In this document: one piece after another, positions 12 through 55,715 of the stretch
How positions within the stretch are numbered: the stretch's first letter is position 1
Layout of the letters: each line of letters starts with the position of its first letter
DNA from: Bacteroidota bacterium
GTDB lineage: Bacteria; Bacteroidota; Bacteroidia; Chitinophagales; Saprospiraceae
DNA: 64,000 bases
Reading direction: 5' to 3'
NCBI GenBank assembly: GCA_029781865.1
Contig: JAKOVW010000054.1
Span: 124,001 to 188,000, forward strand
Position numbers and translations under genes: made by a program
The notes under the pieces: model-generated
Databases searched by the model: none
Seen by the model: only the letters and a program-made list of their open reading frames with translations
What the model was told of the DNA's origin: nothing

Positions 12-60
12 TTAATTAGTAATTAATAATTGGTAATTTGTAATTAGTATTTAATAATTG
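12..60. repeat. 7-bp period AT-rich repeat
   Basis: Seven consecutive heptamers of the form (G/A)TAATTA or ATAATTG fill this stretch in register, immediately before the first gene. The same AT-rich heptamer class recurs at 55445-55493. It belongs to the 7-bp period family found at several intergenic sites in the window. Confidence 0.6.
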
Positions 61-72
61 AAAATTTTCTCC

Positions 73-336
73 ATGAAATATCTTTTTTGGATTTGTTGGA
101 TCATCGATGCAGGTGTTGCCGCATGGTGGGTGATCAGCGATATGAACCTACAATACATACGTCCGAATCCGTATTCATTTGTCTTTTTACTTTACGTTCT
201 GGTCAATCTTTTGATCTTCCTGCTTTCAGACTATAAGAAGGCCGCCTTGATCATGAGTCTGATTCCCACCATTCCGCTGGCTTTGATGATGCTGGTCATT
301 ATCATCGCTACATTGACCGGCGGGAAATGGAATTAG
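73..336 (+). CDS. small three-helix membrane protein
   Basis: An 87-residue hydrophobic protein of unknown function. The reading frame could also open at TTG 58, but that codon is the last three bases of an AT-rich heptamer repeat, so the ATG at 73 is the better start. Three membrane segments are visible: about residues 2-21, 32-50 and 60-82 counted from the ATG, separated by a short polar loop (SDMNLQYIRPNP) and a basic DYKK turn. I recognise no catalytic motif or family. It stands alone, with heptamer repeats on both sides, and could be a conserved lineage-specific membrane protein. Confidence 0.6.
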   Translation: MKYLFWICWIIDAGVAAWWVISDMNLQYIRPNPYSFVFLLYVLVNLLIFLLSDYKKAALIMSLIPTIPLALMMLVIIIATLTGGKWN

Positions 337-339
337 GAA

Positions 340-607
340 TAAGAGGAGAGTTAGGAGTTAGCGGTTAGCAGTTAAAAGTGATGAACTAGGAACTAGGAGC
401 TAGGAACTAGGAGTGAGCAGTGAGCAGTTAGCAATTAAAAGTGATGAAGTAGAAGCGATGAGTGATGAGTGATACTTAAAATACTAGATATTTGAACCAA
501 TTCATAGCGCATGTTTCATCACTCATAGTTCATAGTTCAGATCTCAAAATTCAAATCCCATTGCTCTTAGTTCCTAGCTCCTAGTTCCTAGCTCCTAGTT
601 CCTAGTT
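340..607. repeat. long imperfect hairpin with heptamer-repeat arms
   Basis: The left arm at 383-438 is eight in-register heptamers of the GAACTAG/GAGCTAG/CAGTTAG type, followed at 441-475 by five more (GTGATGA type). The right arm at 566-607 is six heptamers of the CCTAGTT/CCTAGCT type. Positions 384-413 and 578-607 are exact reverse complements over 30 bp, so the element can fold as a hairpin with a loop of about 165 bases. The right arm runs into the 3' end of the receptor gene and supplies its last sense codon and TAG stop. It could act as a 3' transcript stabiliser or terminator, but there is no U-tract. Confidence 0.7.
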
Positions 608-3055
608 TCCTCCTGCCGATGCTCTTTTCTTTTCTTCTTCAGCACCGCTGGTGCGTTTGCGGCCACCGGAAATTTTGGTGCTTCCGAATTTATAATTGAC
701 GGAAAGTGACAATACACGGGTTTCGCGTTTGACATCGAATCGTTCGAAATAATCGCGGTAATAAATACTTGCACTCGGCAGATTCGTCCAGAAAATATCC
801 GTTGCACTTAATTTCAGACTTAATTTCTTTTGGAAAACCTGCTTTTGTATACCGAGACCAAGTCCCCACATGGTATTTAAATGCATAAATCCATACACCT
901 GCGGAGTCTGATATGAGAAATTTAATTCACCGGCCCAGTCATTTTCAAATTTAAATGAATTAGTACTGGACAGTTCCAACACCAGATTTCCGTCTGACAA
1001 ATGAGTATTTGCAAATTCGCCCTTGTACTTGCCAATCCAGGAATTGACATTCAACATGCTGCTCCAGTTTTTGAGGATATCAAAATGTGCACTTCCACTG
1101 ATGGAATAATTTTCAAAACGGGTCAGGTTTTCATTGGTTTGTACGGTAATGCGATTCTGTCCTTCCACTGGTCCGATGACTTCTGTAATGTTGTCCTCCG
1201 TACTCGAATACGTAAAGGATAGATTGTAATTTTTATTAAAATTGTGATTCCATTCAAAATTCCAGCTGTATTGCGGATTGAGATAAGGATTGCCTTCCTT
1301 ATACGTGCTTGGATCGAGGAAAAATTTAAATGGATTTAATTGCTCATAGTTCGGACGATCCAATCTTCTACTCACATTGAATCCCATGTTGTATTGAGGA
1401 GATACCGCATAATTAATAAACAGCGAAGGAAACAAATTGACATAGTTCTTATCAAAGGATTGTCCGTTGACCAATTGATTACCCTTTGCTATTGTTTGCT
1501 CGACTCTGAATCCGGCCTGCAGGCTGAACTTCTGCCATTCTTGCTGTAGGTTAATATAGGCTGCATTGATGTTTTCCTTATAGATAAAATGATTGCTCTT
1601 GGTGCTGTCGTAAACCGGTACCGGATTGCTTTTATCAAAAAATGCAAGATCATTATCTGCATCCACCATGCTACTTTTAATTCCTGCTTCCAGCTTGCCC
1701 TGATGATTCAGGTTTTTTGAAAAGTCCATTTTTAATGAACGTATTTTTAATTTTCCCTTCAGATCTCCGTACAGATAATAATCCGACGCCAGGGGTTGAT
1801 GTTGAACATCAAAATATTTTGTAAGAAAATTCTGCTCCGTATTATTTTCGAACCGGGCATAATCCAGATCTATATTGAGTTCTGTTCCTGCTGAGTCAAA
1901 ACTATGTTTTGCATTCAGGTTGATTGAATAGTTGGGCCAAACATCTTTGCTGTGATTGCTGGTAGAAAATGAAGACACTTTTTGGCCGGACTCATCCTCA
2001 ACATCCGAATTATTTTGTCCGTTTGGTTTAAATCTGTTTAGTGAACCAGTTGCAACAAATCCGACTACTGTTTTTCCATTCGGCAAATAGAAATCCGAGC
2101 CCAATCTTGCGAGATAAAAATTAAATGGAAACACCAGGTAATTTTGCTGATCATAAGCTCCGGTCCTGCTTTGATTTTCAAAAAATTCACGGTATAAATT
2201 GAGTTTGTTCAATCCCTGACGGTAACTGTAATTAGCATTACCAAAAATATTGAAATTTTTTTCGCGATGATTCAAATTAAGACTCACTCCGGTTTTCGGA
2301 TATACACCCTGTCCGTAATTTGCTGAAAGATTTCCATTCGTTCCGAATCGCTGATCCTTTTTCATTTTAATATCAATGATTCCTGCATTGCCGGCAGCAT
2401 CATACTTCGCCGGTGGATTGGTAATAATTTCGATGCGGTCCAGACTGTTGGAAGGCAATGCCTTGAGATAGTTGGCAAGATCTGATCCGGACATCGGAGT
2501 TGGTTTGCCATCAATCATGATTAAGACGCCTGACTTTCCTTTCATCGTAATGGCATCCAGATAATTGATCGTAACTCCTGGTGCTTTTTGCAATACTTCA
2601 AATGCACTGCTGCCACTTGCCAAAATGCTGCTTTCAACATTCACTACGTACCGGTCACTTTTGCGTTCGATAAATGGTTTCTTACCGGAGACCTGCACTT
2701 CATTCAACACCTGCTGCTTTGTTTCCAGCCGGATAATTCCCAAATCAATATCTGTTTTTGCATTTGATAACGGAGCGATTTCCTGAATGAGTGGCTGAAA
2801 GAAAACCATGCTTACTTTTAAAAAATACAATTGTTCCGACTTGGGTTCTAGTTCTAAAGTAAAATTACCCGTCTCATCGCAGGCCGTTGCTTTGATCAGC
2901 GAACTGTCTTTCTTCAAATGCAAACTTATATTGGCAAAGGGCAGCGGTTTGTCTTCCGAATCAATCACTTTTCCCGTAATAATATACAATGGTTTTGCAT
3001 TCAATGCAATACAAATAAATAGCCAAAGGCAAGCCAGGAGCATTACGCGATGCAT
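602..3055 (-). CDS. outer-membrane beta-barrel receptor (TonB-receptor-like, CarboxypepD_reg N-terminus)
   Basis: An 817-residue outer-membrane protein. Order seen: a signal peptide (residues 1-20, cleavage near LNAKP), a carboxypeptidase-regulatory-like beta-sandwich (about 25-110, TGKVIDSEDKPLPFANI), a plug-like domain (about 130-230, with APGVTI, DGKPTPM and the IEIITNPPAKYDAAGNAGII stretch) and a long beta-barrel (about 240-790). The domain plan matches the Bacteroidota outer membrane protein beta-barrel family related to TonB-dependent receptors. No classical TonB box is evident and there is no SusD partner next door, so the substrate cannot be named. The basic tail after the last strand (GGRKRTSGAEEEKKR) is usual for this family. 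The promoter region carries a -7 box (TATATTTG) and a dyad at 3164-3185, suggesting repressor control. Confidence 0.9.
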   Translation of the reverse strand: MHRVMLLACLWLFICIALNAKPLYIITGKVIDSEDKPLPFANISLHLKKDSSLIKATACDETGNFTLELEPKSEQLYFLKVSMVFFQPLIQEIAPLSNAKTDIDLGIIRLETKQQVLNEVQVSGKKPFIERKSDRYVVNVESSILASGSSAFEVLQKAPGVTINYLDAITMKGKSGVLIMIDGKPTPMSGSDLANYLKALPSNSLDRIEIITNPPAKYDAAGNAGIIDIKMKKDQRFGTNGNLSANYGQGVYPKTGVSLNLNHREKNFNIFGNANYSYRQGLNKLNLYREFFENQSRTGAYDQQNYLVFPFNFYLARLGSDFYLPNGKTVVGFVATGSLNRFKPNGQNNSDVEDESGQKVSSFSTSNHSKDVWPNYSINLNAKHSFDSAGTELNIDLDYARFENNTEQNFLTKYFDVQHQPLASDYYLYGDLKGKLKIRSLKMDFSKNLNHQGKLEAGIKSSMVDADNDLAFFDKSNPVPVYDSTKSNHFIYKENINAAYINLQQEWQKFSLQAGFRVEQTIAKGNQLVNGQSFDKNYVNLFPSLFINYAVSPQYNMGFNVSRRLDRPNYEQLNPFKFFLDPSTYKEGNPYLNPQYSWNFEWNHNFNKNYNLSFTYSSTEDNITEVIGPVEGQNRITVQTNENLTRFENYSISGSAHFDILKNWSSMLNVNSWIGKYKGEFANTHLSDGNLVLELSSTNSFKFENDWAGELNFSYQTPQVYGFMHLNTMWGLGLGIQKQVFQKKLSLKLSATDIFWTNLPSASIYYRDYFERFDVKRETRVLSLSVNYKFGSTKISGGRKRTSGAEEEKKRASAGGN

Positions 3056-3149
3056 ATAGTAATTTTAATAAATGAATAAAATGATTGCAGCTTAAACGCC
3101 TGCAAAAGTCAATTCAGAAGGAGACCTAAAGTCGCATTCCTTCCTGTGA

Positions 3150-3157
3150 CAAATATA
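3150..3157 (-). promoter_or_regulatory. candidate -7 box of the receptor gene
   Basis: On the minus strand this reads TATATTTG, an exact match to the Bacteroidota -7 consensus TAnnTTTG. It lies about 95 bases upstream of the ATG at 3055. No clear -33 TTTG is found at the right spacing, as expected for a promoter that needs an activator or is held by the adjacent dyad. Confidence 0.4.
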
Positions 3158-3163
3158 ATACAA

Positions 3164-3185
3164 ATCTACGAAATGATTCGTAGAT
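3164..3185. promoter_or_regulatory. dyad operator candidate (9-4-9)
   Basis: A 9-bp perfect inverted repeat (ATCTACGAA / TTCGTAGAT) separated by 4 bases. It sits six bases upstream of the TATATTTG box, so it would cover the spacer and -33 region. Its core ACGAAATGATTCGT differs in one base from the dyad in front of prc at 29517-29532, which is placed the same way. This is the geometry of a winged-helix repressor site. No such regulator gene is in the window. Confidence 0.5.
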
Positions 3186-3428
3186 ATAAAAAATTTCTTT
3201 TTTTCTATTCACCCCGGTTGAAGGGGACATGGTAGGATCAGGAAATATCGACTGGAATAGATTCAGACATGCCCTTGTGAAGTAATAAAGAAAAACTGAA
3301 CCATGTCAAGATGACAAAGCAATACAATCGCGCTGTTGAATAATTCTGATTCGGGATGGATTACAAAAACTACTCACATGAACCTTACGGAATAGCTTAG
3401 TGTATCCCCTTTTGTGCATAAATACATT

Positions 3429-3926: not shown

Positions 3927-4291
3927 GATATTATGATTAATCCGGTTAATTTAATTATCTAAAGATTTAACTGATTGCCTGAATAAAATTGTATAAGTAA
4001 CGATACAAAGGTATGTTAGCAAGGGCAGTTGTACTACTCTATTAAAGTCAAAATTTGATCAGGTTTGTCATTTTTCCCATAAAGTTCTTTCTTACAAGTT
4101 TTACGTACTTTTAACTAAATAAGCTGTATTTTTGATTTCATTTCCTATTTCCATCGTCACCCATTAAAATTTATTTCCAGGTATCAATCGATTGATGATT
4201 AAGCATGTAGGTTTACTTCAATCCATTCGATTTACCGATTATGTTTGTGGCCCGAAAGATTCCATTAGAATAGTCTTCACTTTGAAATACT

Positions 4292-4323: not shown

Positions 4324-4341
4324 CTTTAAAACCAAATACAT

Positions 4342-12412: not shown

Positions 12413-12660
12413 AGCTCAGCTCAAACTTCAAAAATCATCATTCGTTAATCATTATTCGGCGTTGAACTTCCTTACTGGAGTTTCCAACTTAACAAGTAAA
12501 ATAATGAACATCGATTAACGAATAATGAATAATGAAGTGAATTCCGGAATACATTAAAAATGATGTAATTCATTTTTGAATAATTCTCGATTCAAATCTA
12601 TAAAACTGCTTAAACTTCAAAAATCATCATTCGTTATTCATCATTCGAAATTGAATTTGT
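12387..12660. repeat. duplicated hairpin block, copy A
   Basis: This block holds one full copy of a hairpin (about 12426-12541), whose arms read CATCATT CGTTAAT and CGATTAA CGAATAA in 7-base steps. A linker with an AAAAATGA/TCATTTTT dyad follows, then half of a second copy (about 12610-12660). The same order recurs after the PKD protein gene at 14585-14930, so the gene is bracketed by direct copies of the block. The rest of the 821-bp gap (12031-12330 and 12661-12851) shows nothing I recognise. Confidence 0.65.
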
Positions 12661-12854
12661 TGTTCGCGATTTAATTCTTAAAAACCAGATAATAGATCCC
12701 AATAATCCATTTATAAATCAAAAATCAAGATAGTTTACATCCATTTTGTTAACTTAGCAATCTGAACTCTTGGTTCATATTTTTAAGAGTATAATAGAAA
12801 GATGACCAATAATTCTATAACAAATATTAATAATTTCATATATTGCCCTAATTG

Positions 12855-14612
12855 ATGATAGTAAGGTACATATTTCTTCAACTCATTTCTTTAATAATAC
12901 TGACGGAAGCATTTTCGCAAAGAGAAGATTATAACTGGCTATTAGGATCATGTAACCCTTTATCTGATTCAACCTGGAGTAGGATACATTGGATTTTTAA
13001 TGATCAAGATGTCTATTTGGAGAAGCGAGAGTACAAAGTAGACCATAAAATGCAATACACTAACTCTTCAATTTCTAACAAAAATGGTCAATTATTATTC
13101 TATACCAATGGGCTTTCAATATTCAATCGAAAGTATGAACCAATGCCCAATGGCGATGGATTAAATCCAGGGAAATATGCGAATAGTAATAAAGATTACG
13201 GGTATGATTTGGAAGGCGGAGCTATCATTCTTCCCTGGCCCGGGCATCCAGGAAAATATTTTGTATTTCATCTTACTACGGATAATATTCCATTTGTCTG
13301 GTATTCATTGGATCTGTTTACAACATTAGTGGACATGAGCCTGGATAATGGATTGGGAGATGTTGTTTATAAAAATAAATCCGTACATCACGACAGCCTG
13401 GTAAACGGAAGCCTGAGTGCTTGTCGTCATGCCAATGGCCGGGACTGGTGGATTCCTTGCTTCTATTATTCCGGTAGAAAATGTTTGATGTTTCTTTTGG
13501 ATCCTGGTGGCGTCAAACTTCATCATATTCAATCTATACCTTTTCATTTTGAACCAAGTGGCAACGGTCAGGCACAATTCAGCCCTGATGGATCCAAGTA
13601 TTCATTTTTTCATAGAAACAGCGCAAGCTATCGCGAATTTTTTCTAGCAGATTTTGATCGTTGCAATGGAAGATTTTCTAATCCTGAATATCACACTGTC
13701 AATAAATTTGAATTGGTTGGTGTCGGATTTTCTCCGAATAGTAACTTTCTTTACATGGCAACAGCAGCAGAATTATATCAAATGGATTTGACAGAACCAA
13801 ATCCATTTGAGAATCGCTTGCGAATCGACAGCATTGATGGTTTTGAATCATTTCCATTGTTTCCATCCTATTTTTCCTTCATGCAGCTTGCACCGGATGG
13901 AAAGATTTATATTAATAATGGGCGGTCTCCTGATCGAATCAGTACCATCAATAAGCCGGATCTGAAAGGAAAAGCTTGCGAGGTGCTTCAACACAATATC
14001 CATATCACTAGTAATGCAACATTGCCAAACTTTCCGTTCTTCAGATTGGGAGCATTACAAAATAGTAGCTGCGATACCTTAAATAAACTACCGGTGGCGG
14101 ATTGGACGTATATACCTGATAATACTGACAATTATAAAATAAAATTTAGCGATCAGAGTAATTATGAAATCAGCGAATGGCAATGGGATTTTGGAGATCT
14201 AAATAGTGTATCTGATACAAGCAGTTTGAAGAACCCGGAATATATATTTCCTGGAGATGGAATTTATGAGGTCTGTTTGATTGTAAAGAATCCAAGTGGT
14301 GCAGATACACTATGCAAATCAATTAACATTACCCACGTATCCGCAGAAGATATAGCGGAAGCAAACGCAAGAATAAAAATTTGGCCTAATCCTTCAAATG
14401 GTCAAATTACTATTCAATTCCCCAAAAACATTCTTATAGATAAATCCTTTCTCTCCATACAGGACATCAATGGGAAACCGGTTTATACTGATCGTGCAAT
14501 TTTAGATTCAAGAAAAACATTAACTTTGGATCTTAAGCCTGGTGTTTATTTTGTGATTGTAAATAATTATGCAGGATCTAAATACTATTCCAGGTTGGTA
14601 GTTTTGGAATAG
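12855..14612 (+). CDS. secreted propeller/PKD protein with T9SS sorting domain
   Basis: A 585-residue exported protein counted from the ATG at 12855; a TTG one codon earlier is the alternative. A signal peptide (about 1-21, ending AFS) is followed by a region of about 370 residues with repeated strand motifs (NKNGQLLFYTNG, FSPDGSKYSFF, FSPNSNFLYMATAAELYQMD, LAPDGKIYI) that look like a WD40-type beta-propeller. Then comes a PKD domain (about 413-497, WQWDFGDLNS and YEVCLIVKN) and a T9SS type A sorting domain (about 505-585, WPNPSNGQITI start, RLVVLE end). This composition is common in Bacteroidota surface proteins of unknown ligand. The gene is flanked on both sides by the same hairpin block and preceded by a relic of its own C-terminus. 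Confidence 0.85.
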   Translation: MIVRYIFLQLISLIILTEAFSQREDYNWLLGSCNPLSDSTWSRIHWIFNDQDVYLEKREYKVDHKMQYTNSSISNKNGQLLFYTNGLSIFNRKYEPMPNGDGLNPGKYANSNKDYGYDLEGGAIILPWPGHPGKYFVFHLTTDNIPFVWYSLDLFTTLVDMSLDNGLGDVVYKNKSVHHDSLVNGSLSACRHANGRDWWIPCFYYSGRKCLMFLLDPGGVKLHHIQSIPFHFEPSGNGQAQFSPDGSKYSFFHRNSASYREFFLADFDRCNGRFSNPEYHTVNKFELVGVGFSPNSNFLYMATAAELYQMDLTEPNPFENRLRIDSIDGFESFPLFPSYFSFMQLAPDGKIYINNGRSPDRISTINKPDLKGKACEVLQHNIHITSNATLPNFPFFRLGALQNSSCDTLNKLPVADWTYIPDNTDNYKIKFSDQSNYEISEWQWDFGDLNSVSDTSSLKNPEYIFPGDGIYEVCLIVKNPSGADTLCKSINITHVSAEDIAEANARIKIWPNPSNGQITIQFPKNILIDKSFLSIQDINGKPVYTDRAILDSRKTLTLDLKPGVYFVIVNNYAGSKYYSRLVVLE

Positions 14613-14930
14613 CTCAGCACAAACTTCAAAAATCATCATTCGTTAATCATTATTCGGCGTTGAACTTCCTAAATAAAGATTCCATCATAATAAGTCAAAT
14701 GATGAACATCGATTAACGAATAATGAATGATGAAGTGAATTCCGGAAAACATTAAAAATGATGTAATTCATTTTTGAATAATTCTCGATTCAAATTTATG
14801 ACTCAGCTCAAACTTCAAAAATCATCATTCGTTAATCATTATTCGGCGTTGAATTTCCAGAATGGAGTTTCCAACTTAACTAGTAAAATGATGAACATCG
14901 ATTAACGAATGATGAAGTGTTGAATGATGA
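14585..14930. repeat. duplicated hairpin block, copy B
   Basis: It begins inside the last codons of the PKD protein gene and contains two hairpin copies (about 14624-14742 and 14811-14930), with the same linker as copy A. The first 85 bp match 12387-12473 with about one difference. Arms again run in 7-base steps (CGATTAA CGAATAA). The following bases to 15025 hold the CTATGTGTTCTATGTG-type text and no gene. Confidence 0.65.
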
Positions 14931-15025
14931 AACATAGAATTCCTATGTGTTCTATGTGCGCTACTGTGTTTCAAACAAATTCTGTTATAATGCAAAATCT
15001 TCTTCACGGTAACACGCAACCGAAT

Positions 15026-30414: not shown

Positions 30415-32655
30415 ATGGAAAATCTGGTTTATTTATTACCCGCATTCGGGTTGGTGGGCTTACTTTATATGGCTTATCTCTATAAGTGGGTCGCTGCTCA
30501 GGATGCAGGGGATTCAAAAATGCAGCAAATCGCTGGATATATCAGGGATGGCGCAATGGCCTTCCTTAAAGCTGAATACAGGGTTCTTGCCATATACGTG
30601 GTGATCGCCGGACTGCTTTTGGGTCTGTTGAGTTTTAAAGTTGAAACTACGCATTGGATCATTGTTATAGCCTTTATTTTAGGGGCTCTTTTCTCTGTAA
30701 TTGCAGGTTTTATAGGTATGCGCATCGCCACACTGGCCAATGTGCGCACTACCCAGGCTGCCCGTTCATCGCTGGTGAAAGCTTTGCATGTATCCTTCCG
30801 CGGAGGCACCGTAATGGGATTGGGCGTTGCCAGCCTTGCCGTATTGGGATTAAGCCTTTTATTTGGCTTGTTCTTCTACTTCTTTATGGGTGGACACTGG
30901 GCGAATGCCACAATTAAAGGTCATAATTTTATACCCGTTGAAGCCATGTCCGTGATCCTCGAAGTCCTGGCTGGATTTTCACTGGGTGCTGAATCAATCG
31001 CCTTATTTGCCCGGGTAGGCGGGGGAATTTATACCAAGGCCGCAGACGTAGGCGCTGACCTGGTTGGAAAAGTGGAAAAAGGCATTCCCGAAGACGACCC
31101 AAGAAATCCTGCAACTATAGCGGATAATGTGGGCGATAATGTGGGAGACGTGGCCGGAATGGGAGCAGACTTATTTGGTTCCTATGTGGCAACTGTTTTG
31201 GCTTCTATGGTTCTGGGTAATTACGTCATTCGGGATATGGGCGGAGATATCTCTGCAACAGATACCTTCCGGGGTATCGGACCTATATTATTACCATTAT
31301 TTATAGCTTGTATCGGTATTATTTTTTCCATCATAGGTAGTTTTTTCGTCAGTATAAAATCGGAAACTGCCAAAGAGCAGCAGGTGCAAAATGCATTAAA
31401 CATGGGCAACTGGGTTTCCCTGGGATTGACTGCTGTTGCTTCCTATTTCTGCATTCAATGGTTATTGCCATCTACGTTACAGATGAATTTTTTTGGTACC
31501 GGCATTAAAGCGGTTTCCTCCATGAATGTATTTTATGTCGTATTCATCGGTTTATTTGTTGGTGCTGCTATTTCTTACCTGACTGAATTTTACACCGGAC
31601 TGGGTAAGAAACCGGTAAATGCAATTGTCCAGAAATCAGGTACAGGAGCTGCAACCAATATCATTGGTGGATTGAGTAATGGAATGCTGAGTACGGCAGG
31701 ACCCGTTTTGATTTTTGCCATGGCCATCTGGTTTAGTTATGCCCTCGCAGGATTTTATGGTGTTGCGATAGCAGCGAGCGCGATGATGGCAACCACGGCC
31801 ATGCAACTTGCCATAGATGCATTCGGACCAATATCCGACAATGCAGGTGGTATCGCCGAAATGTCTGAATTGCCTAAAGAAGTAAGAACGAGAACGGATA
31901 TTCTGGATTCCGTTGGAAACACCACTGCAGCGATAGGAAAAGGATTTGCAATTGCATCAGCTGCATTAACCGCATTGGGATTGTTCGCTGCATACGTAAC
32001 ATTTACAGGAATCGATGGCATTAATATATTTAAAGCAGATGTGCTTGCAGCATTGTTTGTTGGAGGAATGATACCCGTTGTCTTTTCAGCTCTTGCCATG
32101 AGTTCTGTTGGTAAAGCTGCAATGGATATGGTCAATGAAGTGCGTCGCCAGTTCCGCGAAATTCCGGGAATTATGGAAGGAACCGGAAAACCGGAATACG
32201 GACGTTGCGTTGCCATTTCAACCAAAGCGGCATTACAGGAAATGATTTTACCAGGTGCAATTACTTTAATTTCACCAATCATTATAGGATTCGTCATGGG
32301 ACCTGAAGCACTGGGTGCCTATATGGCAGGTGTTTGTGTAAGCGGTGTTGTATGGGCTATTTTCCAAAACAATGCAGGCGGATCCTGGGACAATGCCAAA
32401 AAATCATTCGAATCCGGAGTAACCATTGAAGGAGTCGTTTATCACAAAGGCTCCGAACCACATAAAGCAGCAGTCATCGGCGATACCGTTGGAGATCCAT
32501 TTAAAGACACCTCCGGTCCGTCCATGAACATCTTAATCAAACTCACTTGCCTGGTCGGATTAGTACTTGCCCCAATCTTAGGCGAACAATACAAATCTTC
32601 TCATCCCGTGCATCCAAAAATGGAGCAGATCATGCAGCAGAAGGAGATGAAGTGA
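30415..32655 (+). CDS. hppA: K+-dependent membrane pyrophosphatase (ion pump), Flavobacterium-type H+-PPase signature
   Basis: A 746-residue polytopic pump that couples pyrophosphate hydrolysis to cation transport across the inner membrane. The substrate-binding stretch [20 protein letters not shown] begins near 199 (R200, K208, D211, D215) and the DNVGDNVGD acidic cluster follows (D237, D241, D245). A505 and G508 in [10 protein letters not shown] mark the K+-dependent branch; K+-independent pumps have K and T there. The gating glutamate is at E193, seven residues before R200 (position 5.43), while the usual positions on helix 6 are G255 and A259. To my knowledge that placement is typical of Flavobacterium-type H+-PPases, so proton rather than sodium pumping is inferred. 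The gene is a single transcription unit followed by heptamer and TTGCAA repeats. Confidence 0.95.
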
Positions 32656-32669
32656 GATAGGAACTAATA

Positions 32670-32728
32670 GTTAGCAGTTAGCAGTTAGCGGTTAGCGGTT
32701 AGAGGTTAGAGGTTAGCGGTTAGCGGTT
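32670..32728. repeat. heptamer tandem repeat (GTTAGCA/GTTAGCG/GTTAGAG)
   Basis: Eight in-register heptamers start 14 bases after the hppA stop: two GTTAGCA, two GTTAGCG, two GTTAGAG, two GTTAGCG. Variants come in identical pairs, which suggests expansion by doubling. The array runs directly into the TTGCAA repeat region. Confidence 0.75.
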
Positions 32729-32730: not shown

Positions 32731-33022
32731 GTGTTGTTGCAAGATTTCAATGGTGTTGTTGCAAGATTTCAATGGTGTTGTTGCAAGATTTCAATGGTGT
32801 TGTTGCAAGTTTGCAACTTGCAACTCTTCACATGGCATTTATACTTAAATCTTACTACCAATCAAATGCTCACTCTTAGTGTTGTCGCAAGTTTGTATTC
32901 ATGTGTTGTTGCACTTAGTGTTGTCGCAAGTTTGTATTCATGTGTTGTTGCATCTCATGTTGTTGCAAGTTTGTAACTTGCAACTCTCCTTTTGTGTTGT
33001 TGCAAGTTTGCAACTTGCAACA
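32731..33022. repeat. TTGCAA hairpin repeat region 1
   Basis: Three exact 22-bp direct repeats (32731-32752, 32753-32774, 32775-32796) lead into a hairpin with arms TTGCAAG/CTTGCAA (about 32803-32824). A pair of about 39-bp direct repeats follows (about 32879-32957), then two further hairpins (about 32962-32985 and 32999-33021). The region separates hppA from the delta-60 gene and has no gene of its own. Confidence 0.7.
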
Positions 33023-33083
33023 TTTCCATTTTCAGCCACTTTTAATTTTAATTCCTTAACTTTAATCTGGCTTATATGAACAC

Positions 33084-35810: not shown

Positions 35811-35871
35811 TGCAAAGCTGAAGGATTTAAAAATGATTTATCAATTGTTGGAAGTCTGAAGTTTAAATTCC

Positions 35872-36010
35872 CGTGTTGTTGAAAGTTTGCATTCCCGTGT
35901 TGTCGCAAGTTTGTATTCCTGTGTTTTTGCATTCCATGTTGTTGCAAGTTTACAACTTGCAACTCTTCACATGGCACCGTGTTGTTGCAAGTTTGCAACT
36001 TGCAACTCCT
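35872..36010. repeat. TTGCAA hairpin repeat region 2
   Basis: GTGTTGTTGCAAG-type words and two hairpins (about 35938-35965 and 35982-36008) lie directly behind the stop of the truncated propeller copy. The stretch with CTTCACATGGCACCGTG is repeated almost word for word behind the 705-residue gene (40990-41100), so repeat and gene tail were duplicated together. Confidence 0.7.
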
Positions 36011-40928: not shown

Positions 40929-41104
40929 AAGTTCGATATGGTGTTGTTGCAAGTTTGTATTCCCTTGTTGTCGCAATTTTGCACTCCTGCGTTGTTGCAT
41001 TCCATGTTGTTGCAAGTTTACAACTTGCAACTCTTCACATGGCACCGTGTTGTTGCAAGTTTGCATTCCCGTGTTGTTGCAAGTTTGCAACTTGCAACTC
41101 TTAT
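40929..41104. repeat. TTGCAA hairpin repeat region 3
   Basis: This sits directly behind the stop of the 705-residue gene and holds GTGTTGTTGCAAG words plus two or three hairpins (about 41003-41029 and 41076-41099). It is a near copy of region 2. The rest of the gap (40710-40928), upstream of paralogue 2, shows nothing I recognise. Confidence 0.7.
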
Positions 41105-44433: not shown

Positions 44434-44491
44434 AGGATGTCGTTGTTAGTTTATGGTTTTAATAAATGAATTGCAATTCGAATTTATAGCA

Positions 44492-45245
44492 AAAGTTGCA
44501 AGTTACAAACTTGCAACAACATCATGGGAATTTTAATAAACAAATTGCAATTCGAATTCATAGCAATAGATAAAAGTTGCAAACTTGCAACAACATCAGA
44601 CTTGCAATAACATCATAGGCTCATTACAAAAGTTGCAAGTTGCAAACTTGCAACAACATCAGACTTGCAATAACATCATGGGCTCTTTGCAAAAGTTGCA
44701 AGTTACAAACTTGCAACAACATCAGACTTGCAATAACATCATAGGCTCATTACAAAAGTTGCAAGTTGCAAACTTGCAACAACATCAGACTTGCAATAAA
44801 ATCATGGGCACATTACAAAAGTTGCAAGTTGCAAACCTGCAACAACATCAGACTTGCAATAAAATCATGGGCTCTTTGCAAAAGTTTCAAGTTGCAAACT
44901 TGCAACAACATCAGACTTGCAATAACATCATGGGCTCTTTGCAAAAGTTGCAAGTTGCAAACTTGCAACAACATCAGACTTGCAACAACATCATGGGCTC
45001 ATTACAAAAGTTGCAAGTTGTAAACTAGCAACAACATCAGACTTGCAACAACATCATGGGCTCATTGCAAAAGTTGCAAGTTGCAAACTTGCAACAACAT
45101 CAGACTTGCAATAACATCATGGGCTCTTTGCAAAAGTTGCAAGATGCAAACTTGCAACAACATCAGATTTGCAATAACATCATGGGCTCATTACAAAAGT
45201 TGCAAGTTGCAAACTTGCAACAACATCAGATTTGCAATATCATCA
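44492..45245. repeat. 63-bp tandem repeat array with TTGCAA hairpins
   Basis: After two single hairpins (about 44494-44520 and 44574-44592), a 63-bp unit repeats about ten times between 44578 and 45245. The GGC of the GGGCTC spacer recurs every 63 bases from 44618 to 45185. Each unit carries an 8-bp arm pair TTGCAAGT/ACTTGCAA with a 5-base loop, a linker with CAACAACATCAGACTTGCAA, and a variable GGCTC(T/A) segment. Units differ by a few substitutions. Because 63 is divisible by three, one frame stays open over many units, broken by a single T-to-A change (TAG at 45026). The unit is also nine heptamers long. Confidence 0.85.
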
Positions 45246-45321
45246 TAATTTCATAGTAAAAGTGTATCCAAAAACAGCCATGATCATAACAAATTGCGTT
45301 ATTTAGTTGTCCACTTTTTCA

Positions 45322-45597: not shown

Positions 45598-47136
45598 CTA
45601 AAATAAATTTTTCCAGGCAATTTTTTCAGAAATAATTTGTTCAATTGCTGAAATTGGAATCCGTTCTTGTTTTAATGTATCGCGGTCCCGAATGGTGACC
45701 GTCTCATCACTTAATGTATCAAAATCGATGGTCACACAATACGGCGTACCAATCGCATCTTGTCTCCTGTAGCGTCTTCCAATGGCATCTTTGTCATCGT
45801 ACTGACACAAAAAAGAAAATTTTAACTCATCAAAAATTGTCCTGGCTTTATCGACCAATTCGGGTTTATTTTTCAGTAAAGGAAGTACCGCACATTTTAT
45901 TGGCGCGATTGCAGGATGCAATTTCAAAACAACCCGCTGTGATGCTTCTCCTTCAGCATCCGGTACTTCTTCTTCACAATACGCATTGCTCAACATGGCT
46001 AAAAACATGCGGTCACAACCAATAGATGTTTCAACTACATAGGGAATGAAATTTTCATTGGCCTCGGTGTCAAAATATTGCAATTTTTTACCCGACAATT
46101 CCTGGTGACTCTTCAAATCAAAATCTGTACGAGAATGTATGCCTTCCAATTCCTTAAATCCAAATGGAAAATCAAACTGAATATCTACCGCAGCATTTGC
46201 ATAATGCGCCAGGTTTTCGTGATTGTGAAATTTGTATTTTGATGCCGGAGTACCCAGTGCCAGGTGCCAGTTCATACGCTTTTCTTTCCAGTACTCATAC
46301 CACTGCATTTCTTCTCCTGGCTTCACAAAAAACTGCATTTCCATTTGTTCGAATTCGCGCATGCGGAAAATAAATTGCCTCGCTACGATTTCATTGCGAA
46401 ATGCTTTTCCGATTTGCGCAATTCCAAATGGTATTTTCTGGCGGGTCGTTTTTTGCACATTCAAAAAATTCACAAATATCCCCTGTGCCGTTTCGGGTCT
46501 CAGATAGAGTTTCCCTTCTTCACCCGCGATGTTTCCCAATTGAGTATTAAACATCAGATTGAATTGCCGCACTTCCGTCCAGTTTCTCGAACCGGTATCG
46601 GGATCGACAATCTCGCAATCTTCGATAATTTTTTTCAACTCTGCCATGTCACCGGAAGTCATGGCATCGGTCAGTCGTTTTTGAATCTGATCCTGCTTCG
46701 TTTTATTTTCTACTACCCTGGGATTCGTAGCGCGGTATAATGTTTCATCAAAACTTGCTCCAAATTTTGCCCTGGCTTTTTCAACTTCCTTTGAAATTTT
46801 GGCCTCCAACTTATCGAGATAATCTTCGATCAATTGGTCTGCGCGATATCTTTTTTTGGAATCTTTATTGTCGACCAACGGGTCATTAAATGCATCGACA
46901 TGCCCGGAAGCCTTCCATGTTTTCGGATGCATGAATATCGCAGCGTCCAGTCCCACAATATTCTGATGCATTTGCACCATGCTCTTCCACCAATACGTCT
47001 TGATATTATTTTTCAATTCTACCCCATTGGGAGCATAATCATACACGGCACTTAATCCGTCATAGATTTCTGAAGAAGGATAAATGAAACCATATTCCTT
47101 ACAATGCGATGTGAGTTTCTTGAACAGATCTTCCAA
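45598..47136 (-). CDS. glyQS: glycyl-tRNA synthetase (single-chain, class II)
   Basis: A 512-residue enzyme that charges tRNA-Gly with glycine using ATP. The N-terminus (LTSHCKEYGFIYPSSEIYDG, then YDYAPNGVELKNNI) is typical of the dimeric, eukaryote-like GlyRS. Motif 2 is at FRNEIVARQFIFRMREFEQM, and the motif 3 region at ETSIGCDRMFLAML. The anticodon-binding domain occupies about 410-512 (APIKCAVLPLLKN, DAIGRRYRRQDAIGTPYCVT). The start is TTG at 47136: TAA lies in frame three codons upstream and no ATG is available. Four GAGATCT heptamers occupy the leader 14 bases upstream. Essential gene, apparently on its own. Confidence 0.95.
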   Translation of the reverse strand: MEDLFKKLTSHCKEYGFIYPSSEIYDGLSAVYDYAPNGVELKNNIKTYWWKSMVQMHQNIVGLDAAIFMHPKTWKASGHVDAFNDPLVDNKDSKKRYRADQLIEDYLDKLEAKISKEVEKARAKFGASFDETLYRATNPRVVENKTKQDQIQKRLTDAMTSGDMAELKKIIEDCEIVDPDTGSRNWTEVRQFNLMFNTQLGNIAGEEGKLYLRPETAQGIFVNFLNVQKTTRQKIPFGIAQIGKAFRNEIVARQFIFRMREFEQMEMQFFVKPGEEMQWYEYWKEKRMNWHLALGTPASKYKFHNHENLAHYANAAVDIQFDFPFGFKELEGIHSRTDFDLKSHQELSGKKLQYFDTEANENFIPYVVETSIGCDRMFLAMLSNAYCEEEVPDAEGEASQRVVLKLHPAIAPIKCAVLPLLKNKPELVDKARTIFDELKFSFLCQYDDKDAIGRRYRRQDAIGTPYCVTIDFDTLSDETVTIRDRDTLKQERIPISAIEQIISEKIAWKNLF

Positions 47137-47149
47137 CTTGGATTATTTT

Positions 47150-47180
47150 GAGATCTGAGATCTGAGATCTGAGATCTGAG
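47150..47180. repeat. GAGATCT heptamer repeat in the glyQS leader
   Basis: Four exact GAGATCT heptamers and a partial fifth lie 14-44 bases upstream of the glyQS TTG start. Each contains the self-complementary AGATCT. Position in the leader means it could influence transcript folding or copy-number-dependent expression. Confidence 0.7.
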
Positions 47181-47270: not shown

Positions 47271-49623
<2,353 letters not shown>

Positions 49624-50854: not shown

Positions 50855-50932
50855 TTGAACGTTAATTTAAATTGACCCGACAAAATTCTCTAAAAAAAGC
50901 TGTTACTTTAGCCCCTTATAAATTCTTAACGA

Positions 50933-52570
50933 ATGATTAACCACAATACGAAAGCAGGCTTCTTCTTTTGCATCTTGTTGATTTTCACAAAGTTGAATGG
51001 GCAGGAAAGCTTAATTCTAGGAGGGGGCTTCCAGGCCAATGGTAACCTCTTTCTGCGGGACAGCCAAATTGGTGCTTATAATATCCCTCAATACGACAAC
51101 CAGCTGTTCGGATCCGAATCCTGGCTGGATCTGAATGCTTCTTACCAGGGATTCAATGGAGGAATCCGTTTTGATGCATTCAACAATTCAAATCTGCTGA
51201 ATCCGGTAAGTTCCTATACTGCTCATGGCATCGGAAAATGGTATATTCAAAAAGAAACGGACCACTTTGAAGTGCAGGCCGGTTACATATACGATGAGAT
51301 TGGCAGCGGTATTATTTACCGAGCTTATGAAGAACGAGCGCAACTCATAGACAATGCCCTTATCGGCGTTGCCGGCAAATATAAATTTTCTGATAATTGG
51401 TCGGTCAGAGCATTCACAGGAAAACAAAAAAATCTGTTTGATTCCTACAATTCGATATTGAAAGGAATTGCAATCAACGGTTTTTTCAAACCTTCTGATT
51501 CCAGCAGTTTGAGTCTGGCTCCCGGATTTGGTTTTGTCAACAGAACCCTTGGAGAAGAAGTGGTCAATCAAATTTCAGCTATTGTCGGCGGTTATCAAAA
51601 ACAAGATCAATTCAAACCTTACTACAACACCAACGCTTATACCCTATTCAATAATCTGAGTTATAAAAGTTTCAGCTGGTATATTGAAGCGGCATTCAAG
51701 CCAAAAGATATTTTTTATGATCCTAAAGCGGCACAGGTTTTTCCAAACGGCGATACCATACTTGGAAAATTTGTTTCGAGAGATGGAAATGTATTTTACA
51801 CCAGTCTGAGTTATGCTGAAAATAATTTAGGGATAACCGGAGAATTTAAACGAACCAACGGATTTATTTTTCGTGCAGAACCTTTACTCGATAACAATAA
51901 AGGTTTAATTGGTTTTATTCCACCAATGGCTAAAATCAATACGTACCGGTTAAATTCCCTGTACTACCCTGCCACTCAATTTTTGGATGAAATGGCTTAT
52001 CAGTTTGATCTTAAATATGGCCTCGGAGAGCACTGGAACTTTTCAGTAAATTATTCAGATATCCGCGACAAGAATTTCAAAACCTGTTTTTACAATGAAA
52101 TTTATGCCGAGGTTATTTATAAAGAACCAGGCAAATGGCAAATCACCGGAGGAATACAAAGACAATTTTTCAACCAGGATTTATATTATAGTCACGTCGG
52201 TGCTCCCAATGTAAAAGCATTCACCCCATTTGCAGAATTTCTGTATAAGTTTACACACAAAACGTCATTGCGTTTAGAAACGCAATACATGGACAACAAT
52301 GAAGACAGAGGCAGCTGGATTTATGGTCTTGCAGAATTGGGTTTTGCGCCACACTGGCTGATCGAATGTTCAGATATGTATAATACAAAACCTCCTGTCG
52401 GTAAAATTGCATTACACTATCCTACTTTAGGAGTGGCATACACACATGGTCCCAATCGTTTTGCCTTGCGGTACGCAAAACAAATTGAAGGAATTATTTG
52501 CTCAGGAGGTATCTGCAGACTCGAACCTGCATTCAGCGGAATCCGGGCAAGCATTACCAGTATATTTTAA
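50933..52570 (+). CDS. outer-membrane barrel-like protein (DUF6029-like)
   Basis: A 545-residue exported protein. Signal peptide 1-23 (LNGQ), followed by regular alternating amphipathic strands (WLDLNASYQGFNGGIRFDAF, WYIQKETDHFEVQAGYIYDE, and so on) to the C-terminus, which ends in a hydrophobic strand (GIRASITSIF), as in outer-membrane beta-barrels. I recognise it as the Bacteroidota DUF6029 family with moderate confidence. No enzymatic motif. The following lipoprotein gene starts 11 bases after its stop, so they form an operon. Function unknown. Confidence 0.8.
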   Translation: MINHNTKAGFFFCILLIFTKLNGQESLILGGGFQANGNLFLRDSQIGAYNIPQYDNQLFGSESWLDLNASYQGFNGGIRFDAFNNSNLLNPVSSYTAHGIGKWYIQKETDHFEVQAGYIYDEIGSGIIYRAYEERAQLIDNALIGVAGKYKFSDNWSVRAFTGKQKNLFDSYNSILKGIAINGFFKPSDSSSLSLAPGFGFVNRTLGEEVVNQISAIVGGYQKQDQFKPYYNTNAYTLFNNLSYKSFSWYIEAAFKPKDIFYDPKAAQVFPNGDTILGKFVSRDGNVFYTSLSYAENNLGITGEFKRTNGFIFRAEPLLDNNKGLIGFIPPMAKINTYRLNSLYYPATQFLDEMAYQFDLKYGLGEHWNFSVNYSDIRDKNFKTCFYNEIYAEVIYKEPGKWQITGGIQRQFFNQDLYYSHVGAPNVKAFTPFAEFLYKFTHKTSLRLETQYMDNNEDRGSWIYGLAELGFAPHWLIECSDMYNTKPPVGKIALHYPTLGVAYTHGPNRFALRYAKQIEGIICSGGICRLEPAFSGIRASITSIF

Positions 52571-52581
52571 AAATTGAAAAC

Positions 52582-53424
52582 ATGAAAACCAGAAATCTAT
52601 ATTATATCTTTTTAATTCTTTGCTCATTTGGCATTGGTATTACCGGCTGTTCTGACTGGGAAACTGCAGTGAATATACCGGACAACGGACCCGTGAATTC
52701 TAAACGCGTGGTCGTCATTGAAGAATTTACAGGTGCTTCTTGCGTAAATTGTCCGAAGGGAATCGCTGCGAATGATGCAATACGCTCTATCTATCCATAC
52801 AATGTCATTGTTGTTGAAATTCATTCCAACTTTTTAGGACAACCTGCAACGGCAGGACAGGTGAATCTTCGTACACCGGATGCACAAGCGATTGAAGCCT
52901 TTCTGGGAAACTGGCTTGCAAAACCGGAAGCTGCATTCAACCGCTTGTATGACGACGTAGGTCTGACTTATCGTTATGGTACCCCTGAAAGCTGGAAGTC
53001 CTATGTGGATGCCGAATTAAATAAACCACCCAAAGTGGAATTAAAAGCAACGACTACTTTTGATGATGTTAGCCGCGAACTCAAAATCAATTTGACTCTT
53101 ACCGGTCTGGAAGCCATCAACGAACCTGTGCATTTGCATTGTGGCATTTCAGAATCCAACATTATTGCCGATCAGTTGGACAATACGGGTAAATTATTGA
53201 ATTTCGTTCACAATCATGTGTTGCGGAAAATGATTACACCTATTCCAGGTGAAAAAGTTACCGACGTACTTTCTTCCGGACAAACTATATCCAAAGAGTA
53301 TTCTTTTACCTTACCACAGGACTCAATACTTTGGAAGCCGGAAAACTGCAAAGTCTTTGCCTATGCTTCGCTGGATCAAAATAAAAAATACATTTTGCAG
53401 GGCACGGAAGCAAAGGTGAAATGA
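52582..53424 (+). CDS. Omp28-like lipoprotein with thioredoxin-type CxxC
   Basis: A 280-residue lipoprotein. The ATG at 52582 gives a classical lipoprotein signal with lipobox at ITGC (C23); the frame also extends upstream into the previous gene, but that start is unnecessary. After the anchor the domain begins RVVVIEEFTGASCVNCPKG with C54-V-N-C57, the signature of Omp28-related proteins with a thioredoxin-like fold. The C-terminal half is an Ig-like beta domain (about 160-280, VELKATTTFDDVSRELKINL). Omp28 of Porphyromonas is a surface antigen and adhesin; a redox role is possible because the CxxC is kept. It is the second gene of an operon. Confidence 0.9.
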   Translation: MKTRNLYYIFLILCSFGIGITGCSDWETAVNIPDNGPVNSKRVVVIEEFTGASCVNCPKGIAANDAIRSIYPYNVIVVEIHSNFLGQPATAGQVNLRTPDAQAIEAFLGNWLAKPEAAFNRLYDDVGLTYRYGTPESWKSYVDAELNKPPKVELKATTTFDDVSRELKINLTLTGLEAINEPVHLHCGISESNIIADQLDNTGKLLNFVHNHVLRKMITPIPGEKVTDVLSSGQTISKEYSFTLPQDSILWKPENCKVFAYASLDQNKKYILQGTEAKVK

Positions 53425-53444
53425 GGAAGGAAAAAAAGTGATGA

Positions 53445-53509
53445 GTTAGGAGTTAGGAGTTAGGAGTTAGCTGTTAGCAGTTTAGGAGTTTAGGAGTTAG
53501 GAGTGACGA
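53445..53509. repeat. heptamer repeat (GTTAGGA type)
   Basis: Three GTTAGGA units, one GTTAGCT, one GTTAGCA, two 8-base GTTTAGGA variants, one more GTTAGGA and a GTGACGA follow the Omp28-like gene stop by 20 bases. The 8-base variants shift the register once each. Confidence 0.7.
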
Positions 53510-53547
53510 GGGATAAATGATGAGGGATGGGGAGTAGCTTGATTTTT

Positions 53548-55329
53548 TCAATTGATATTCAATTTTGATTTGTATCCGGGATCCAGCACTTCTCCAAGTT
53601 GCTGTGCTTTTAACGCGTCTTTGATGGCATCTTCTTTTTTACCTGATTCATATTCGGACATGGATTTTACAATCCAATAAGTTGAATTTTTAGGATCTAA
53701 TTCTATAGCTTTACTAAAATCAGCCGCTGCTTCTTCGTATCGTTTCAATTGAAACAAAGTCATTCCTCTTCCATAAAATACATCCACACTATTCGGTTCA
53801 AGTTTTAAATATCGGGTATAATCCATAACAGCTTGTTCTGATTTGCCTGTGTAATTATGAAGTAAGCCCAGGCTCCTGAATGTTTCAGAAAAATTAGTAT
53901 CAATTTGCGCAGCGCGATTCAAATCTATCTCGGCTTTTGCATACTCCTTCATTCTGGTATAAATGATACCGCGATTCACCAATGCTTTTAAATAAGCCGA
54001 ATCATATTTCAAAGTCTGGTTGTAACTGGACAATGCCTGGGCATCATTTTTATCTTCCTTAAAGTAATAAGTACCCAGATTGTAATGACCCGTTGCAGAT
54101 TGCGGATACTTTCTCACCACATCGGACCATAGAGTCTTGTCGGATTTCCAAACTTTGGTCCGGGAAAAAGAAATGAATGCAAACACCAAACATAGGGCGA
54201 CGGATAATCCATACACCAAACTATTGCCGGCATACGCCTTTGTTTTTTGATTACCATATTCATACAAATACATCGCTGCGATATAAAACAAACCGAGATA
54301 GGGCATATACGTAAAACGTTCGGATACTACAGTCATGCCTACCGTAACAAATTGCAAAACCAAAATGATATTCACCGTAAAAAATCCGAATCCAAATACA
54401 AGCAGCCTATTGGTTTTGAATTTTCTCAATACCAATACCGCCAATAAAATCAATATAACCGGAGCCAACTGAAATTGCAAGGGAAACTGACCATCTACTT
54501 TTGCTGGAAACGGATGAAAAGAAGACAGGTTAACTGGTATGATCAGCTTTATCAGATAGTGTACATAAGCATACCCGGACAACATGAATCGCTCTATCAG
54601 ACTATATTGATCCATACTTCCTACTGCAGAACCCTGTGCTTTAATCGTGATTAAACCCATGATAACTGAACCAATCAAAAAGGGAATTTTTTCTAAAATC
54701 AATCCTGCGTTTATTGTTCTGTTTCTATAATAATCAATAACCAAAAGACTTAATGGAAAACTAACTGCTGCCGGCTTCGACAATAAGGATAATACAAAAA
54801 AGAATAAGCAACCCAGATAGAGCAAACTATTTTTGATATCCGGTTTTTTGATATAATACAAGTAGAAGATTAAACCCGGGAGATAAAAAAAACTATACAG
54901 GACATCTTTAAGCTCGGATATCCACGCCACTGACTCGACATGCATCGGATGAATTCCAAACAAGGCACTCACGAAAATTGCCACAAATAATTTGCGATCG
55001 CTCAATACATAAACAAACCAAAATACCCCTGCAATATTCATCAGGTGAATAAACAGATTGACTTTGTGATAGAATGCCGGATCTAAATGAGAAGCATGAT
55101 ATTCTATGGATAATCCAATCATGGTCAACGGATGATAATTTCCAACAAAATAATTTTGATTGAAAAAATAGGGAATTGCTTCAGATAAAGGTTTGGCCAG
55201 TGATGCATTCCGCACGATGTATTCAAAATCATCCCAAGCAAAACGGTTAAAACAAACCGGACTCAATGCAATTGCACTCAGGATGATCACCCCGATGAGC
55301 GACAGGAAAACTGCTTTGTTTTTTTCCAT
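53548..55329 (-). CDS. TMTC-like membrane glycosyltransferase with TPR repeats, copy 1
   Basis: A 593-residue polytopic membrane protein from the ATG at 55329. The frame opens at TTG 55353, but that codon lies in a TAAATTTG promoter box (55351-55358), so the ATG is preferred. The N-terminal GT-C-like part (about 1-390, around ten helices) has an Asp-Asp pair in the first loop (WDDFEY), the conserved GIHPMHVESVAW stretch and SERFTYMPYLG, all typical of TMTC-type O-mannosyltransferases. The C-terminus has five or six TPRs (about 395-580; GHYNLGTYYF, ALVNRGIIYTRMKEYAKAEI). Transfer of a sugar from a lipid carrier to exported proteins is inferred. A paralogue follows beyond the DPP III gene. Confidence 0.85.
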   Translation of the reverse strand: MEKNKAVFLSLIGVIILSAIALSPVCFNRFAWDDFEYIVRNASLAKPLSEAIPYFFNQNYFVGNYHPLTMIGLSIEYHASHLDPAFYHKVNLFIHLMNIAGVFWFVYVLSDRKLFVAIFVSALFGIHPMHVESVAWISELKDVLYSFFYLPGLIFYLYYIKKPDIKNSLLYLGCLFFFVLSLLSKPAAVSFPLSLLVIDYYRNRTINAGLILEKIPFLIGSVIMGLITIKAQGSAVGSMDQYSLIERFMLSGYAYVHYLIKLIIPVNLSSFHPFPAKVDGQFPLQFQLAPVILILLAVLVLRKFKTNRLLVFGFGFFTVNIILVLQFVTVGMTVVSERFTYMPYLGLFYIAAMYLYEYGNQKTKAYAGNSLVYGLSVALCLVFAFISFSRTKVWKSDKTLWSDVVRKYPQSATGHYNLGTYYFKEDKNDAQALSSYNQTLKYDSAYLKALVNRGIIYTRMKEYAKAEIDLNRAAQIDTNFSETFRSLGLLHNYTGKSEQAVMDYTRYLKLEPNSVDVFYGRGMTLFQLKRYEEAAADFSKAIELDPKNSTYWIVKSMSEYESGKKEDAIKDALKAQQLGEVLDPGYKSKLNIN

Positions 55330-55350
55330 AAGTCCAGTTGACAATGATTG

Positions 55351-55358
55351 CAAATTTA
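55351..55358 (-). promoter_or_regulatory. -7 box of the TMTC-like gene, deciding its start
   Basis: TAAATTTG on the minus strand, an exact TAnnTTTG match. It overlaps the TTG that would give the longest frame and sits 22 bases before the ATG at 55329, so transcripts from it can only use the ATG. Confidence 0.5.
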
Positions 55359-55377
55359 GTGCATAATGAGAAATAGC

Positions 55378-55715
55378 TGTTTAGGTTGTAGAGGGTTAGC
55401 TGTTTAGGCTGTAGAGGATTAGTCTTTTAGGCTGTAGTATTAAAGGTTATTGATTATTGGCTATTGGTAATTAGTAATTGAATATTGATTAAATGACTAT
55501 AAATATTCATAAAATAATTATAATAAGTATGTTTCAAAAATTGCAACGTTCCGCAATTCCCATTTTTAAACTATTCAACTTATATGCAATCATTTAAACA
55601 CCCAAATCCTAAATCCTTACAGCCTAAAAAACTAAACAGCTAAACTCCTAAACCCCTACCATCCTACAGCCTACCACCTAAAAACCTAAAAGGCTAAAAA
55701 CCTAAAAAGCTAAGA
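55378..55715. repeat. degenerate hairpin region with heptamer and CTA-rich arms
   Basis: The left part (55378-55440) has GTTTAGGCTGTAGAGGATTAG-type words repeated two to three times. 55445-55493 is a 7-bp period AT-rich stretch (GGTTATT GATTATT type). The right part (about 55600-55715) has the complementary CCTACAGCC/CTAAAC words. The two sides pair imperfectly, giving a long hairpin of about 330 bp in the gap between the DPP III and TMTC-like genes. Confidence 0.6.

Follow-up and report, generated by a model that had tools for sequence, protein, structure and literature searches.

Intergenic DNA in a genome of the Saprospiraceae (Bacteroidota bacterium, assembly GCA_029781865.1) carries numerous tandem arrays of seven-base words, of which more than expected lie directly behind stop codons with their G-rich strand as the coding strand of the gene that they abut. 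Our starting point was a stretch of 64,000 nucleotides, positions 124,001 to 188,000 of contig JAKOVW010000054.1 (bases 124001–188000 of contig C37 in our numbering; hereafter, the window), for which an earlier note, made from the sequence alone, had described a family of intergenic repeats with a period of seven. The placement of these arrays behind stop codons in sense orientation is their main regularity, and the earlier note missed it. We read them as simple-sequence repeats with a unit of seven, lengthened and shortened by slippage or local unequal copying, that collect behind stops with the G-rich strand coding, a reading to which we assign a probability of about 0.55.

Placement Behind Stop Codons

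The genome comprises 4.52 Mb in 93 contigs, and 848,220 bases (19%) of it were read: 300 of the 308 kb of contig C31, 324 of the 340 kb of C37 including the window, and parts of C2, C10, C20, C51, and C56. Most of the contig parts were picked for known pattern matches, and the sample is not blind, as C31 and C37 were already known to carry matches. Placement was judged on a set of 653 genes called by our own script, with 15 arrays that overlap the end of an open reading frame (ORF), seven lacking one or both neighbours, and two inside genes set aside. Of the 46 testable arrays, 28 begin 0–30 nt past a stop codon; random placement in the same gaps, tried 2000 times, puts 12.4 arrays there on average and 22 at most. 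Other gene sets point in the same direction (37/57 arrays, random mean 14.4; 41/61, mean 22.9; 26/46), and with genes of at least 200 amino acids only, 19 of 47 arrays fall within the stop zone (mean 6.5). There is no preference for start codons (12 of 61 arrays; 13.9 expected).

In 26 of 27 arrays, the coding strand of the abutted gene is the G-rich one. The same holds for all nine arrays in convergent gaps, where promoter avoidance is no explanation. Genes with arrays behind their stops include those for the H+-pyrophosphatase, ATP synthase subunit a, DNA polymerase I, RimM, and RlmN. The array reaches into the ORF in 16 of 49 array-gene pairs and thus supplies the last codons of the gene.

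Two other origins of this placement were considered. A gene-calling artefact, in which stop-rich arrays close spurious frames, was controlled by omitting the overlaps with ORF ends and by restricting the gene set to those of 200 amino acids or more. Seeding of an array from the gene's own stop codon was rejected: phase agreement is clear only for arrays that overlap the stop (0.24, n = 16; 0.90, n = 4, in the sister genome G004 described below), where it is built in, and for arrays starting past the stop it is 0.19, against 0.08–0.19 in the other phases (G004, 0.20 against 0.06–0.17).

The Period of Seven

Identity at lag 7 is 0.69–1.00 at all seven array sites named in the earlier note, with shuffle means of 0.29–0.40, and at no site was the observed value reached in 500 dinucleotide shuffles (e.g., 0.76 at positions 12–60). 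The arms of two hairpins, which had likewise been said to step in sevens, do so more weakly (0.47 at 12426–12541 and 0.44 at 14624–14930; shuffle mean 0.29, 0/500). The period had been called strict, which goes slightly too far: some arrays contain insertions and deletions (indels), which amount to 3% in the array at 53443–53504 and shift the register of another (L050, 19621–19854).

For all intergenic DNA of the window, identity at lag 7 is 0.3217 against 0.2803 ± 0.0032 (z 13.1); lags 14 (z 7.9) and 8 (z 6.5) are raised too, and lag 6 is not (z −0.7). One source of the raised lag 8 is a period-8 array at 55619–55721, made of ACCTAAAA words. The intergenic DNA of C31 (300 kb) has raised lags 7 (z 9.5), 14 (z 10.3), and 21 (z 6.9), and further 5 (z 7.0), 6 (z 3.3), 15 (z 4.7), and 18 (z 4.8), but not 8 (z 1.2). 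No peak at lag 7 or 14 was observed in coding DNA of the window and C31.

The refuting condition set by the earlier note, a lag 7 no higher than lags 6 and 8, did not come true. The contrast is cleaner in islands: those scoring at least 16 at lags 6, 7, and 8 number 0, 7, and 1 in the window and 0, 10, and 2 on C31, and none of the lag-7 islands lies in coding DNA of either. On the whole of C37 as read, including the window, the numbers are 0, 24, and 7, with four islands within called ORFs. The sampled intergenic DNA holds 66 such islands, compared with none in each of ten shuffles. The view of the arrays as non-coding, genome-wide, and present at many unrelated sites was right; on the count against shuffles they are long simple sequence repeats, i.e., tandem units of 5–11 nt extending beyond the genome expectation. 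Searched against Rfam 15 at the gathering score, the window gave no match.

At a score of at least 16, the bases read contain 70 arrays. Their density is 61 per Mb on C31 plus C37, window included (38 arrays over 624 kb), and 83 per Mb in the whole sample, which extrapolates to some 275–375 arrays in the genome; the share of intergenic DNA within arrays is 3.8 and 6.4%, respectively. Lengths of 100–330 nt occur, and there are perfect arrays of more than 20 units. Contigs C2 and C56 end within long perfect AGTTAGC arrays (L048, 6350–6527, and L064, 1–126), and hence the assembly breaks there.

Drifting Words with a Common Consensus

On the G-rich strand, an in-register alignment of the words gives the columns A (0.85), G (0.69), T (0.72), T (0.71), A (0.66), G (0.53), and N. 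There are 931 words of 276 kinds, the commonest being AGTTAGG, AGTTAGC, AGTGATG, and AGCTAGG, with GTAATTA-like and GAGATCT-like arrays as outliers from the consensus. The earlier claim that the words change from site to site while the period is kept therefore holds with a restriction, namely that the words lean on AGTTAGN. Given this single consensus and a between-locus word identity of 0.518 (0.454 in a column-permuted control), words at different loci are not free of each other.

Word identity decays with distance within arrays: in the 38 arrays that are 84 nt or longer, it is 0.783 for adjacent words and 0.600 for words ten positions apart, and off register it is 0.19–0.33. The decay fits local duplication in multiples of seven accompanied by mutation, and on this ground slippage, one of the mechanisms suggested earlier, is a fair candidate.

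Heptamer Arrays in Related Genomes

Eight members of the genus (56–140 kb each), 11 other members of the family (20–60 kb), and two of the order (20 kb) were sampled; our searches yielded no relative at the level of strains. Lag-7 islands at a score of 16 were found in G004 (three in 140 kb), G008, G012, and G024 (one each, that of G024 directly past a stop codon); the other 17 samples contained none. The closest sister sampled is G004, 84% identical in PolA. A larger sample of its genome (540 kb) contains 23 arrays, fewer than in the present genome, with different words (AATTAAG, GTTAGTT, TATAGTC, and others, on the coding strand) and the same placement: 14 of 19 testable arrays begin at most 30 nt past a stop codon (mean of random placement 8.4, maximum 15; 14 or more in 4/2000 trials).

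Individual genes differ between the two genomes. Behind polA there is a gap of 188 nt with a 140-nt array, as against 8 nt in G004, as confirmed by alignment; in all seven genus relatives with a readable end, an ATG follows 7–24 nt on (by eye). At a further gene, where the present genome has AGTTAGG-type words, the period-7 stretch of G004 is A-rich and its own. These events are not datable, as the intergenic DNA of the two genomes otherwise does not align.

Across the family, the distribution of heptamer arrays is patchy. Three AGTTAGN words, used as a pattern, matched 18 of 150 family genomes, the present one included, but so, by our count, did the reversed control, which is the commoner of the two in G041, G047, and G113; recurrence of the AGTTAGN word across the family was thus not borne out. 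Six places matching the pattern were read, with ORFs taken by length only. In three cases (L257, L260, and L261) a long open frame has its stop codon within the array; at L262 it starts 5 nt past a stop, at L258 it ends 4 nt from the stop of an ORF, to which it is sense, and at L259 it precedes an ORF start in antisense. One genus relative, G003 (L138–L140), exceeds its shuffles at lag 8 (by 39 per thousand, with two islands) and not at lag 7.

Possible Origin of the Arrays

We consider it highly probable that slippage is the source of the arrays, and propose only tentatively that transcription causes their placement. Whole multiples of seven would be gained or lost in an array, either by slippage or by local unequal copying. 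Past a stop codon, ribosomes no longer shield the RNA, which may pair back to its template; this would leave the G-rich coding strand single-stranded and prone to slippage. Growth into the gene would be purged; this would produce a sharp 5′ edge and could be the reason why the arrays abut the stop codon. The words would change by mutation and local copying, so that the period may outlive any one of them. We do not think that the heptamer word itself has a conserved function.

Several observations weigh against this account. Change of array length was not directly observed, and the decay of identity is only indirect evidence of it; slippage, moreover, leaves the period of seven itself unexplained. 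Slippage in place does not predict that ordered strings of words be common to different loci, and they are, beyond word shuffles: strings of four words with three or more kinds are common to 5 locus pairs, compared with 0.2–0.3 in shuffles, and strings of three distinct words to 12, compared with 1.3–2.7 in the control. Nor does local slippage alone predict a genome-wide consensus. Tandem repeats of other periods lean weakly to stops in the present genome (13/48 against 8.5; 35 of 1000 trials), and show no such preference in G004 (10/31 against 8.3). Finally, the strand bias of G004 is weak (9 of 13 arrays sense; 3 of 3 in convergent gaps), and its placement at a score of 25 is not significant (8/10 against 6.0; 73 of 1000 trials).

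Loss of repair genes was tried as a cause and rejected. MutS is above the cut-off in 15 of 16 genomes, the remaining one, G119 (85% complete), having a weak match only. Separately, RNase H (PF00075) has weak matches in 12 of the 16, and is without a match in three of seven array-bearing genomes (G047, G065, and G119) and one of nine others (G002), numbers too small to tell the two groups apart. The present genome has both MutS and an RNase H-like match.

A wider conjecture, held with more doubt than the role of transcription, is that a word-independent process common to several phyla writes sense heptamers behind stops, where ribosomes leave the message, with the words free and the period and geometry conserved. 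If the stop and strand rule were general, heptamer repeats would record mutation coupled to transcription or translation, not plain polymerase slippage, and the question "why seven, and why there" would become testable. For annotation, it matters that the final codons of a gene, stop included, can come from an array, and that some contigs end in arrays.

Alternative Explanations

Selection for a 3′-end element, with the arrays acting in 3′ untranslated RNA as a terminator substitute or as the site of an RNA-binding protein (core GUUAG), would agree with the consensus common to loci, but we regard it as unlikely. Terminator-like hairpins, i.e., G+C-rich hairpins followed by a T-run, are found at none of 38 array-bearing gene ends compared with 41 of 272 others (p 0.004), and at the H+-pyrophosphatase gene, 10 of 14 relatives show a terminator hairpin (by eye) where the present genome has an array. 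Terminator replacement, suggestive at first, is weak once corrected for array-free length, as only 3.0 terminators are then expected, and there is no effect in G004 (1/15 array ends against 22/133 others). Besides, the words differ in G004 and drift within arrays, and arrays are also situated in operon-like gaps, e.g., behind polA. Similar doubt attaches to a dispersed repeat family, in which array pieces would be copied between loci through conversion or template switching, or by way of RNA with the sense orientation retained. This would account for the ordered strings and the consensus common to loci, as well as for the sense orientation; on the other hand, the shared strings are few, the way in which identity decays locally suggests that arrays grow in place, and sharing between loci in G004 is barely over the control (0.523 against 0.501).

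The hairpins mentioned in the earlier note could suggest bidirectional terminators between convergent genes, which seems very improbable to us. The arrays at 348–473 and 516–607 do pair, and the stem at 337–601 is strong (−92.7 kcal/mol, z −6.8; none of 200 shuffles as stable). However, facing pairs are a minority of the arrays (nine at a threshold of 12), and in most of them the arms match no better than foreign arrays: compared with arrays from other loci, the facing arms come out at ranks 3, 12 (for the pair in the window), 24, 27, 33, 37, 39, 62, and 65 of 69–70. Co-evolution of hairpin arms is thus unsupported. On these ranks, the stem at 337–601 is read as two sense arrays face to face, and hairpins between facing arrays look like by-products. 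Hardly credible, finally, is a role of the arrays as backup stop codons in all three frames, seven not being a multiple of three. For 45 of 49 array-gene pairs, the consensus word of the array does include a coding-strand stop triplet (31.4 in letter shuffles; 17/20 against 11.9 in G004), but the other strand holds stops too (35/49; 18/20 in G004), and array lengths go far beyond the need. No in-frame excess is seen over ten codons in the present genome (0.105, 0.107, and 0.141 for frames 0, 1, and 2; n = 44); the values in G004 are 0.135, 0.118, and 0.100, from only 17 ends.

Comparison with Known Heptamer Repeats

The STRR repeats of filamentous cyanobacteria are tandem heptamers in non-coding DNA, of another phylum and with other words. 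Closer in geometry are the GGGNATC heptamers of Xanthomonas and Nostoc, which, as described (PMC4692102), are non-coding, occur at many loci, have the G-rich strand coding, and lie at most 50 bp from a stop codon, some overlapping it; divergent gaps are under-represented, and a further class is located upstream of ORFs on the non-coding strand. The arrays reported here share with them the period, the proximity to stops, and the sense orientation. In contrast to the fixed G-quadruplex word of GGGNATC, with four units preferred, their words drift, and four or more GGG tracts are present in only 2 of 74 arrays; tandem GGGAATC, GGGGATT, and GGGGACT were absent from the sample.

The earlier note knew of no description of heptamer repeats in this bacterial group, but TAACTGA direct repeats have been published for Beggiatoaceae, Cyanobacteria, and five Bacteroidetes (PMC4679880); they are mostly located just upstream of start codons. 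The present arrays resemble them as heptamer arrays of Bacteroidetes, some of them long, and the one-base variant TAACTGC is common here (55 tandem pairs in the sample, on the C-rich strand). They differ in that start codons are not favoured and that no tandem pair of TAACTGA itself was found in the 848 kb. For the heptamer class of long simple sequence repeats (Mrazek 2007, as cited in PMC4679880), slippage linked to the polymerase contact length was proposed, and the match of seven to this length is a suggestion cited in both PMC4679880 and PMC4692102. The unit of seven, the greater-than-chance length, and the non-coding location are common to that class and our arrays, whereas the stop-codon and strand rule and the drifting vocabulary set the latter apart from the class as cited.

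Thus, stop-adjacent coding-strand heptamers were already known from Xanthomonas and Nostoc, and heptamer arrays from a few Bacteroidetes since 2015. New here are a period and geometry common to sister species with changing, mostly non-quadruplex words, and the sense rule in convergent gaps. A literature search, with most subscription journals outside its reach, found no earlier account of heptamer arrays with drifting words next to stop codons in Saprospiraceae.

Arrays and Other Repeats of the Window

Four arrays of the window conform to the stop-codon rule. The array at 348–473 (plus strand; GAGTTAG, GAACTAG, GAGTGAG, and GATGAGT) starts, in sense, 11 nt past the stop codon (334–336) of ORF 58–336 (plus strand), which encodes 92 amino acids and has no Pfam match. 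Opposite to it, the array at 516–607 (minus strand; CTAGGAA, CTAGGAG, and TATGAAC on that strand) overlaps by 6 nt, also in sense, the 3′ end of gene 602–3055 for a TonB-type outer membrane beta-barrel (stop codon 602–604, minus strand). The array at 32669–32728 (plus strand; AGTTAGC, GGTTAGC, and GGTTAGA) begins 13 nt past the stop (32653–32655, plus strand) of the H+-pyrophosphatase gene 30415–32655, in sense. The fourth, at 53437–53532 (plus strand; AGTGATG, AGTTAGG, AGTTAGC, and TTAGGAG), begins 12 nt past the stop (53422–53424, plus strand) of gene 52498–53424 (Omp28 domain) and is sense to it; this gene was absent from earlier gene sets owing to an overlap, and the placement became clear once it was included.

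Two arrays are exceptions. The perfect array at 47149–47180 (plus strand; TGAGATC × 4.6) lies 12 nt from the 5′ end of a class II tRNA-synthetase gene (45598–47136, minus strand) and 90 nt behind a gyrase B-like gene (47271–49238, minus strand), and the array at 55440–55491 (plus strand; TTATTGA, TTATTGG, and TAATTAG) is 86 and 226 nt from its neighbours. For the array of TAATTAG words at 13–66 (plus strand; score 27), the left neighbour is outside the window and placement is not judgeable.

Two further repeat families are present in the window. One is a quasi-palindromic dispersed element with an inner period of seven, evident at lag 7 and in its genome copies; copy 1 is located at 12413–12571, and copies 2 and 3 at 14613–14940, directly past the stop of gene 12852–14612, where they fold at −80.4 kcal/mol (z −5.1). 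Its matches, full or partial, number 18 genome-wide and include C37:30392–33118, C10:4255, and C28:196095–196501. The other contains the palindromic 26-mer GTTGTTGCAAGTTTGCAACTTGCAAC and is found at 32731–33025, 35859–36007, 40941–41100, and 44457–45246, forming a tandem of 63-bp units at 44574–45246. The 26-mer occurs within three mismatches at 88 clustered places in the genome (reversed control, none), and the family is also situated behind some heptamer arrays (at 32731 and in L050).

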